64,000 nt of DNA from Balneolaceae bacterium (GTDB taxonomy: Bacteria > Bacteroidota > Rhodothermia > Balneolales > Balneolaceae): assembly GCA_007694095.1 (NCBI GenBank), contig RECI01000164.1:1-64000 (forward strand), written 5' to 3'. How positions within the stretch are numbered: the stretch's first letter is position 1; the number at the start of each line of letters is the position of its first letter. Shown in pieces: positions 49,563 to 63,794 of the stretch. Under the pieces are notes generated by a model that did not search any database, was not told the origin of the DNA, and saw only the letters and a list, made by a program, of their open reading frames with translations. The translations under genes were made by a program, and so were the position numbers.

Positions 49563-49940
49563 GAAAGGTTCCGGGCAATCGTCCCGACAAGCATGTCGGG
49601 AAGGAAAGTCCGAACACCAACGAGAACCGTGCCCCGGGAAACCGGGGGGCTTCCCGATTTGTCGGGAAGAACAGACAGTGCCACAGAAAACAGACCGCCC
49701 CGGTGCGTAGCACTGGAGTAAGGGTGAAAAGGCGGGGTAAGAGCCCACCGCCCCGGCCGGTAACGGTCGGGGGCACGGAAAACCTCACGGGGTGCAAGTT
49801 CACGCAGGTTGTGCGCCTCTCGTCGCTATACAACCGGGTGGAACGCTAAATGTACCGGGAGCAATGCCGGTGCCAGATAAATGATTGCCATCCCGACAAG
49901 CTTGTCGGGTTACAGAATTCGGCTTACAGGGAACCTTTTC
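49563..49940 (+). ncRNA. rnpB: RNase P RNA (bacterial class A)
   Basis: P1 GAAAGGTTCC/GGAACCTTTTC; P4 core GGAAAGTCCG; ACAGAAAACAGACCGCC; GGTAAGAGCCCACCG; AGATAAATGATTGCC; ACAGAATTCGGCTTACAGG. Confidence 0.95.
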
Positions 49941-49945
49941 AATCT

Positions 49946-49993: not shown

Positions 49994-50027
49994 GTAGCCC
50001 GGGTCGCTGACCCGGAAAAGGAAAGCC
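49994..50027. repeat. related palindromic repeat copy 4 (without inner hairpin)
   Basis: TAGCCCGGGTCGCTGACCCGGAAAAGGAAAGCC, shares CGACCCGGAAAAGGAAAGCC-type arm with copy 3. Confidence 0.65.
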
Positions 50028-50247
50028 ATTGCAAAAAGGAAGTCAATGGAGTTGCCGTGATTCTGGATAGGAAACCATCCAACCGATACCATTCAGTCAA
50101 GTTGCAGAGATCAACCAGCCGGCTCAGCGAGCCGGGGTACTGTAGCCCGGCTTTCTATTAAAACTTGTAATGCCGGGCAATAAACCCTTATACTTAAGGT
50201 TGTAATTTTACAATTTCACTATAAAAAAAACGAATACTGATATATTT

Positions 50248-57980: not shown

Positions 57981-59201
57981 ATGAAAATCTACTTAAAACT
58001 GGCGTGGAGAAATATCTGGAGGAATAAACGCCGCACAATAATTACAGTTTCCGCGATAATATTTGCAGTAATGCTGGCCATTATTCTGCAATCCGTTAAC
58101 CGGGGAAGCTATGAAGTGATGATTGACCGGATGGTGAGTTTCAATACCGGATATGTGCAGATTCAGGATATGCGGTATGATGAAGAATCTTCACTTGACA
58201 ACTCTTTTTGGTATGATGAGGAGTTGAGAGACCGGATTCTGAACGCCGATTTAAGAATAGAAAGGATGGCGCCCAGAATTGAAACATTTATGCTGGCAGC
58301 GAATCACACATCTACACGCGGATCGGTTGTATTCGGCAAAAACCCTCAAAAAGAAAAGAAATTTAACGATTTTGAAAACTATCTGAGTGAAGGACGCCTT
58401 TTTGAGATGAATGAACAGTCAGTGGTGCTTGCACGTGGGCTTGCTGAGCGGCTTCAATTAGGAGTTGCCGATACGTTGGTTCTCATCGGACAGGGCAGGT
58501 TTGGTATGTCGGCAAGCGGGCTGTTCGAAATCGTAGGGATTTTGGATCACCCTGTAAGACAACTGAATAATAACGGTGTTTTTATGGCTCTTGACACCGC
58601 ACAGCACCTGCTTTCGGCTGAGGGCTATATTACCGGGCTGATGATTGCACCTGTGCATGAGAGGCAGACAAACTCCGTCGCTTCGTCACTGAAAGAAGAA
58701 TTGAAAGATGAAGAACTGGCTGTCTATACATGGCCTGAATTAATACCTGAACTTCTCGAGCTGATGGAAATGGACCTGGCCACTCCCCGACTTCTCACAG
58801 TTGTGCTTTATGTGGTGATCGGTTTCGGCTTTTTGGGAACCATTCTAACCATGACACTTGAACGGCTCAGGGAATTTGGTGTATTGCTGTCTGTGGGTAT
58901 GCAAAGATTTAAATTATCTGCGGTTCTGTTTATTGAAACCATCTTTATCAGCATAATCGGTGTATTGGCCGGAATCGCTGTTGCCTGGCTGATTCTGGTA
59001 CTGATTGACCCGATTTATCTTACCGGTGAGGCGGCACAGGCAGTGATTGATATGGGTTTTGACCCGGTTATCCCGATGTCGTTTGCCGCTGATCAATTTT
59101 ACAGACAGGGTTTCTTTGTGTTCCTGGTTGCGGTAGCAGTATTCATGTTTCCGCTGATTAAAATCTCAAGGCTGAATATCCTTGATGCAGCAAGATCATA
59201 A
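57981..59201 (+). CDS. ABC transporter permease (FtsX/LolC-like), A1
   Basis: LAWRNIWRNKRRTIITVSAI; C-terminal TM set. Confidence 0.93.
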   Translation: MKIYLKLAWRNIWRNKRRTIITVSAIIFAVMLAIILQSVNRGSYEVMIDRMVSFNTGYVQIQDMRYDEESSLDNSFWYDEELRDRILNADLRIERMAPRIETFMLAANHTSTRGSVVFGKNPQKEKKFNDFENYLSEGRLFEMNEQSVVLARGLAERLQLGVADTLVLIGQGRFGMSASGLFEIVGILDHPVRQLNNNGVFMALDTAQHLLSAEGYITGLMIAPVHERQTNSVASSLKEELKDEELAVYTWPELIPELLELMEMDLATPRLLTVVLYVVIGFGFLGTILTMTLERLREFGVLLSVGMQRFKLSAVLFIETIFISIIGVLAGIAVAWLILVLIDPIYLTGEAAQAVIDMGFDPVIPMSFAADQFYRQGFFVFLVAVAVFMFPLIKISRLNILDAARS

Positions 59202-62573: not shown

Positions 62574-63794
62574 ATGTACCTGAAACTTGCCTGGAGGAAT
62601 ATCTGGAGAAATAAACGGCGGACACTCATCACCTTGAGTTCCATTCTGTTTGCAGTGGTTTGCGCTCTTTTTATCGAATCAATAGAAAGAGGTTCGCACG
62701 ATCTTACTGTAGAAAATATGACCCGTTTCCATACAGGATATCTGCAGGTTCAGGATTTTCGCTTCGAAGATGAGCCCTCTCTTGATAATTCATTTTACTA
62801 TGATCCCGAATTCTTTGGTTCCATTGAAGAAAATGTGGAGGGGATTGAATTTACGGTTCCCAGGATTGATGGCTTTATGCTGGCTGCAGGAGAGGAGCTA
62901 ACACGTCCCGCAATGGTATTGGGCATCCTTCCCGGGCGCGAACAGAGGCTAAATGGCCTTGTAGACAGGCTTGTTGAAGGGCGATTTTTTAATGAGGGGG
63001 AGAGTACAGCCGTAGTGTCACAAGGGTTGGCAAGCCGGTTGAATGTTGCTGTGGGTGATACTTTGGTCCTTCTTGGTCAGGGGCGTTTCGGGATGTCAGC
63101 AGCGGGAAAATATTATATCAGTGGCATCGTAAAATTACCGCTGCGAGAGATGGACAATCAAACCATTTATCTCTCAATAAGTGAAGCACAATGGCTCCTT
63201 TCTGCCGAGGGCTATATTACTTCCTTGTTGATAACACCCGAATCGGCCGCCCAGGTGAACATATTAGCAGAAGCTTTGTCGCAGATTTTTGAGGGTACAG
63301 AGTATCGGGTGCTTACATGGCGCGAAATGATGCCAGAACTTATTGAAGCACTTGAATTCGATAAAGCAGGTACACGGATGTTTATGGCAATCCTTTATGT
63401 AGTGATTGGTTTCGGAATTTTCGGAACTATACTCACTATGACCCTGGAACGCCTGCGCGAATTCGGGATACTGCTTTCTGTAGGCATGAAACGAATGAAA
63501 CTGGCGGCTGTAGTATTTATTGAAACCTTGCTTATTAGTATTCTGGGTGTACTGAGCGGATTCGGACTCGGCCTGTTTTTAATCATCTATTTTAATATCA
63601 ATCCTATTACAATTGGCGGTGATGGGGCGGAGTACATGCTGGATATGGGATTTGATCCGATTCTTCCAACAGCCATTGCACCAGATATCTTTTTCTATCA
63701 GGGCAGTGTAGTATTTCTCATTACACTGGTGATAAGTTTGTATCCATCATTCAAAATTCTGAGGCTTAACATAATTGAAGCGGCAAAGAAATAA
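62574..63794 (+). CDS. ABC transporter permease A2 (paralog of 57981-59201)
   Basis: YLKLAWRNIWRNKRRTLITLSSI; GDTLVLLGQGRFGMSAAG matches A1. Confidence 0.93.
   Translation: MYLKLAWRNIWRNKRRTLITLSSILFAVVCALFIESIERGSHDLTVENMTRFHTGYLQVQDFRFEDEPSLDNSFYYDPEFFGSIEENVEGIEFTVPRIDGFMLAAGEELTRPAMVLGILPGREQRLNGLVDRLVEGRFFNEGESTAVVSQGLASRLNVAVGDTLVLLGQGRFGMSAAGKYYISGIVKLPLREMDNQTIYLSISEAQWLLSAEGYITSLLITPESAAQVNILAEALSQIFEGTEYRVLTWREMMPELIEALEFDKAGTRMFMAILYVVIGFGIFGTILTMTLERLREFGILLSVGMKRMKLAAVVFIETLLISILGVLSGFGLGLFLIIYFNINPITIGGDGAEYMLDMGFDPILPTAIAPDIFFYQGSVVFLITLVISLYPSFKILRLNIIEAAKK

Follow-up and report, generated by a model that had tools for sequence, protein, structure and literature searches.

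The P3 and P19 hairpins of the RNase P RNA gene (rnpB) in the analysed window, a stretch of 64,000 nucleotides from a Balneolaceae genome (G000), carry one palindromic module, CCCGACAAGCWTGTCGGG, which also forms the tip of composite palindromes of approximately 50 bp dispersed in the same genome. Most likely, a member of this dispersed family replaced the P3 tip of G000 or was the source from which it was copied, a direction of copying that we infer. Inserts in the P3 helix of related genomes are a stronger result than the invasion of G000 rnpB by a palindrome.

Hairpins of the rnpB gene in the window

The source organism is an uncultured soda-lake member of the Balneolaceae near Rhodohalobacter. 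An M50-like protein encoded in the window is 71% identical to its counterpart in Rhodohalobacter sulfatireducens and 86, 79, and 78% identical to those in the related genomes G047 (PWLN01), G056 (SLPZ01), and G055 (SKYV01), respectively. The rnpB gene is located at positions 49564-49942 of the forward strand and encodes a class A RNase P RNA, matching the complete Rfam model RF00010 (model positions 1-367 of 367) with 224.3 bits at a gathering score of 100.

The preliminary description of this gene had placed the same palindrome in P3, P12, and P19. The three strings are indeed present on the forward strand at 49582-49601 (TCCCGACAAGCATGTCGGGA), 49650-49669 (CTTCCCGATTTGTCGGGAAG), and 49892-49909 (CCCGACAAGCTTGTCGGG), and each palindromic 20-mer is predicted by folding to form a hairpin of -11.3 to -12.3 kcal/mol (z -4.4 to -5.1). 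The first of them is assigned to P3 by sequence, Rfam alignment, and folding, the last to P19 by sequence, and the sameness of these two holds. The middle one is P9 according to the Rfam hairpin order and has only the 6-bp stem TCCCGA/TCGGGA in common with P3 and P19; the actual P12 is a different forward-strand hairpin at about 49700-49716, which is not related to the palindrome. P8 (CCCCGGGAAACCGGGG, 49632-49647, forward strand) is common to G047, G055, and G056. The names P8, P9, and P12 follow the helix numbering of E. coli.

P3 and P19 of G000 agree in 17 of 18 letters and represent a true repeat pair. When the whole window was searched with CCCGACAAGCATGTCGGG allowing up to three mismatches, only P3 and P19 were retrieved (four strand matches), compared to a mean of 0.03 in shuffled sequences, with none of 100 shuffles attaining four matches. 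Scored against its own P19, the P3 of G000 reaches 17, which ranks first of 24. The likeness of P9 to the P19 of G000 is unremarkable, since 12 of the 24 P19 helices of the genus, its own included, score equally well or better.

Two further repeats were observed in the window, namely more palindromic repeats of the GTAGCCCGGGTCGCTGACCCGG and AGCCGGCTCAGCGAGCCGG types downstream of rnpB (49998-50160) and a diverged tandem duplication (57987-58977 and 62574-63564) with stretches of about 73% identity at a spacing of 4587.

The dispersed palindrome family

The pattern CCCGACN6GTCGGG occurs at 21 sites in G000 vs none for the reversed control, and relaxing the spacer to CCCGACN{0,12}GTCGGG gives 24 sites vs three in the control. 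Outside rnpB, the family comprises 19 copies, 18 of which lie outside open reading frames of at least 100 codons and one inside a 106-codon frame. The palindrome thus qualifies as a dispersed short palindromic repeat in the broad sense and is found at other, mostly intergenic loci, as had been expected. The exact 18-mer of P3 occurs seven times in the genome when P3 itself is counted, i.e. in six further copies, and the 18-mer of P19 is unique.

The dispersed copies recur in two contexts. Many of them lie within the arms of an outer imperfect palindrome, CTGCAAGAGTGC...GCTCCTTGCAGAG, and others have a bare form flanked by TTTTCAT and ACTGTCGCT, to which the P3 of G000 (T-core-A) is closest. 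The arm unit is also repeated in G047, G052, and G056. As outer 50-bp palindrome arms (CCTGCCAGAGT...TCCTGGCAGAG) enclose another core in G047 (L278:3240-3420), the cores look like exchangeable tips. At one orthologous spacer (L016), the syntenic spacer of G047, which is otherwise rearranged, is devoid of the element, suggesting that copies turn over between these sister genomes. MITEs are characterised by target-site duplications and precise empty sites; no target duplication was seen here.

CCCGACN6GTCGGG is abundant in only three of 92 family genomes, G047 (23 sites), G000 (21), and G056 (15); G055 has it once, in its own P3. Beyond G000, the exact P3 18-mer was found only in G047, at four sites, among the sites listed (G067-G071, G076, G078, and one G047 site excepted). 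One G047 palindrome (C68, L260:50-110) occupies, judged by eye, the place of the anticodon arm in a tRNA-Pro-like remnant; a tRNA was called at this locus neither by ARAGORN nor by Rfam (E up to 10). The palindrome in P12 of G047 was also considered as a dispersed repeat and rejected, having one other match in that genome with one mismatch.

Rickettsia palindromic elements (RPEs) and cyanobacterial short repeats can invade rnpB. STRR repeats consist of tandem heptamers, and this dispersed repeat class was reportedly encountered inside cyanobacterial rnpB by Vioque in 1997. The palindrome of G000 is similar as a dispersed repeat within RNase P RNA but differs in being a single palindrome found in P3 and P19. 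Hairpin elements inserted in structured-RNA regions are also known as mitochondrial GC clusters and double-hairpin elements, which are comparable as hairpins in structured RNA but are organellar and of other sequence. Dispersed short palindromes of the RPE or CGTC-tagged kind also land within genes, as stated in PMC3733652; the G000 palindrome shares this property with them but has no CGTC tag.

Origin of the palindromic helices

Detection of rnpB was possible in 88 of the 92 family genomes, and 87 genes were compared, G088 having a partial match and G051, G054, G066, and G071 having none. G051 belongs to the same genus and is 98% complete, so that the gene may be disrupted or may fall into a gap of the assembly. 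In a protein tree, G000 pairs with G047 (support 0.998), G055 with G056 (0.996), and G052 with G063 (1.0), and these three pairs group together at a support of 0.92. Related forms of P19 are found in G000 (CCCGACAAGCTTGTCGGG), G047 (CCCGGCAAGCTTGTCGGG), G056 (CCCGACATGAATGTCGGG), G052 (CCCGACAGGGTTGTCGGG), and G055 (CCCCGAATTGTCGGG), and the helix is different in G063; P19 is therefore regarded as inherited and drifting in this six-genome clade. Between G000 and G047, it differs at two places, once within the stem and once at the stem foot. P9 has a common CTTCCCG stem in G000 and G047 (CTTCCCGTTTCAACGGGAAG) and differs towards the loop, and the P9 palindrome of G000 looks like a product of drift from the form of its sister. 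The palindrome in P3 is present in G000 and G055, and other forms of this helix occur in G047 (CTCAGCTAAGCCATGGCGTAGGTGAG), in G056, which has an insert of about 150 bp, and in G052 and G063, which have stems of the TCTCCCGA type. The anticipated differences between orthologous helices are thus borne out by the P3 of the sister species.

TCCCGA-type stems are widespread. TCCCGAN{3,12}TCGGGA occurs in 86 of 92 family genomes and is enriched in most of them (20 occurrences in G000 vs one in the control). Within rnpB, palindromes of this type are found in 18 of 87 genomes from several genera, mostly as stems of P3 or P19, which appear to be homologous throughout the genus and into a second one. 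If placement were uniform, 0.18 occurrences in rnpB would be expected, but this is an unfair null because the gene is full of hairpins. Across the 87 genomes, the genomic density of TCCCGA palindromes is associated with their presence in rnpB (p = 0.022); inside the genus, density does not predict rnpB content (p = 0.34, 10 vs 15 genomes). In genus-wide permutations over 24 genomes (G056, which has no short P3, was omitted), helices within one gene were no more alike than helices from different genes (P3-P19, p = 0.15; P3-P9, p = 0.48; P9-P19, p = 0.62), and a family-wide co-evolution of P3, P9, and P19 is not supported by these tests. Colonisation of three helices by one element, as proposed initially, is at odds with the drift of P9, the inheritance of P19 within the clade, the wide occurrence of TCCCGA stems, and the lack of concerted likeness across the genus. 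What persists of the proposed mobile palindrome are the dispersed copies and the variation of P3; transposition of the short palindrome itself is putative. Conversely, confinement of the motif to rnpB, which would have spoken against mobility, does not apply, and the ordinary drift named along with it does apply to P9 and to the inherited P19.

The preferred reading, which is considered about evenly balanced between right and wrong, combines a P3 tip from the dispersed family, an earlier origin of P19, drift of P9, and P3 as a recurrent landing site. P19 would have gained or evolved the CCCGACAAGCWTGTCGGG module first and would then have been inherited with ordinary drift, and P9 would be a look-alike produced by drift. 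The P3 tip may have been exchanged by template switching between palindromes or by insertion and subsequent trimming, and its replacement would be tolerated since DNA with a perfect inverted repeat is transcribed into an RNA hairpin, which restores a working helix. A dispersed-family origin of P3 is opposed by G055, whose P3 has the palindrome with no other site in the genome. In principle, rnpB could also be the donor of the dispersed copies.

Ordinary helix drift together with convergence, the main rival, is a possible but clearly less probable explanation. P3, P9, and P19 of the genus tend towards G+C-rich TCCCGA stems, two of which would nearly coincide in G000, and the dispersed palindromes would be an unrelated family of similar make-up. 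The intermediate-looking P3 helices of G052 and G063 may be cited in its favour. The TCCCGA stems in P3, P9, or P19 of 18 of the 87 genomes, the small differences in P9 (mainly near the loop) and P19 between G000 and its sister, and the non-significant permutations of helix likeness also agree with drift. However, the entire P3 18-mer including its loop is the very sequence found six more times in G000, and six of eight P3 stem pairs are unlike the genus form CTTCCCGAN4TCGGGAAG in an ungapped comparison by eye.

It is rather improbable that P19 converted P3, or the reverse, with no participation of the dispersed family. Such intragenic copying would account for the 17 of 18 shared letters and is in line with P19 being the older carrier (G000, G047, G056, G052), but P3 is identical to dispersed copies and one letter off P19, and the P3-P19 likeness is absent genus-wide. 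The described REP families are defined by GTAG or CGTC tags (PMC3733652). The G000 family is similar to REP/RAYT systems in its small, many-copy intergenic palindromes but has no tag and no cognate RAYT that was found. RAYT-type Y1 transposases are encoded in 65 of 92 genomes (five in G000), but RAYT-driven REP transposition into rnpB is very improbable and was rejected: 20 RAYT flanks, including four of the five in G000, show other hairpins or none, and GTAG or CGTC occurs within 10 nt of 0 of 19 dispersed copies.

Inserts in the P3 helix of related genomes

In G056, P3 (L138:7277-7452) consists of a stem of roughly 22 bp around a dispersed element of about 150 bp with long inverted ends (GGCTGTCCAAAAAGGCC). 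The insert (query stretch 19-171) has at least eight other copies in G056 with 79-85% identity, some of them partial, among 9 of 83 candidates scored, and nine matches in G055. It contains CGTCATCCCGTACTTGATACGGGAT and looks like a member of the CGTC-tagged repeats, a resemblance only.

In four genomes, G001 (L221), G003 (L222), G004 (L223), and G029 (L226), an open reading frame of about 86 codons with a GIY-YIG domain is located between the paired strands of P3, which in G003 (CCCAGCACATAACGTTCATTGTTC and GAACAATGAACGTTATGTGCTGGG) flank a frame of 86 aa. In G034 (L228), the contig starts inside such a frame, and G074 (L229) has, judged by eye, a decayed piece of it. The catalytic domain PF01541 was identified in all four distinct proteins scanned (G001, G003, G029, and G034) with E values of 3.4e-14 to 2.7e-19; the translation from G004 is the same as that from G001. 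As regards a possible horizontal transfer of the GIY-YIG gene, protein identities of 72-78% match the divergence of the rnpB core in the same genomes (74-78%). A short P3 in G030, CCTGGCACATTTATGTGCCGGG, resembles an empty site, and the rnpB core of G030 is 92% identical to that of G029. A DNA search of the 92 genomes with the G003 insert yielded no other full copy and, as the sole other match, a 59-nt piece in G010. To look for GIY-YIG in P3 outside the Balneolaceae, 244 genomes of the class were searched with a pattern, which misses G034 and G074; it retrieved only the cases already known from four genomes and four more matches that look fortuitous. Like GIY-YIG homing endonuclease genes, the P3 frame encodes a GIY-YIG protein, is single-copy, occupies one fixed site, and has a patchy distribution, but it differs in that it lies in the loop of a ribozyme hairpin, with no group I intron involved. 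A literature search, beyond whose reach most subscription papers lay, found no bacterial GIY-YIG gene in RNase P RNA.

Other rnpB variants were also noted. P3 of the related rnpB genes of G021 and G028 (L224, L225) encloses a repeat of the GTCATCCTGAGCG/GAAGGATCT type in opposite orientations, by eye as if the loop had been inverted between the P3 strands. The rnpB gene of G033 (L227) has an AT-rich insert of about 125 nt in the P12 region, and G032 and several members of genus g2 are longer to a similar extent.

P3 of Balneolaceae rnpB may be a landing site that tolerates inserts and has taken up inverted-repeat DNA on repeated occasions, from the repeat of about 150 bp in G056 to the GIY-YIG frame in G001, G003, G004, and G029. 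Whether the P3 tip of G000 is the smallest-scale case of an inverted repeat accepted in P3 is an even call. Only tentatively can the P3 loop of the family be viewed as a recurrent home for selfish DNA, in which elements with inverted-repeat ends, including a putative homing GIY-YIG gene without an intron, would replace the helix and leave the ribozyme unbroken, with the 20-nt palindrome of the window as the smallest member.

For annotation, these inserts imply a warning, as the 5' part of insert-bearing rnpB genes is missed: in G003, the Rfam match covers 379 nt despite P2 lying 319 nt upstream of the AGGAAAGTCC anchor. If true, the acceptance of mobile DNA in one helix of an essential ribozyme would show that selfish elements need no intron to live in structured RNA genes, since a perfect inverted repeat supplies its own helix. 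The palindrome shared by two outer helices, together with the larger repeats and the nuclease gene in relatives, suggests that selfish DNA can land in RNase P RNA and be tolerated there.
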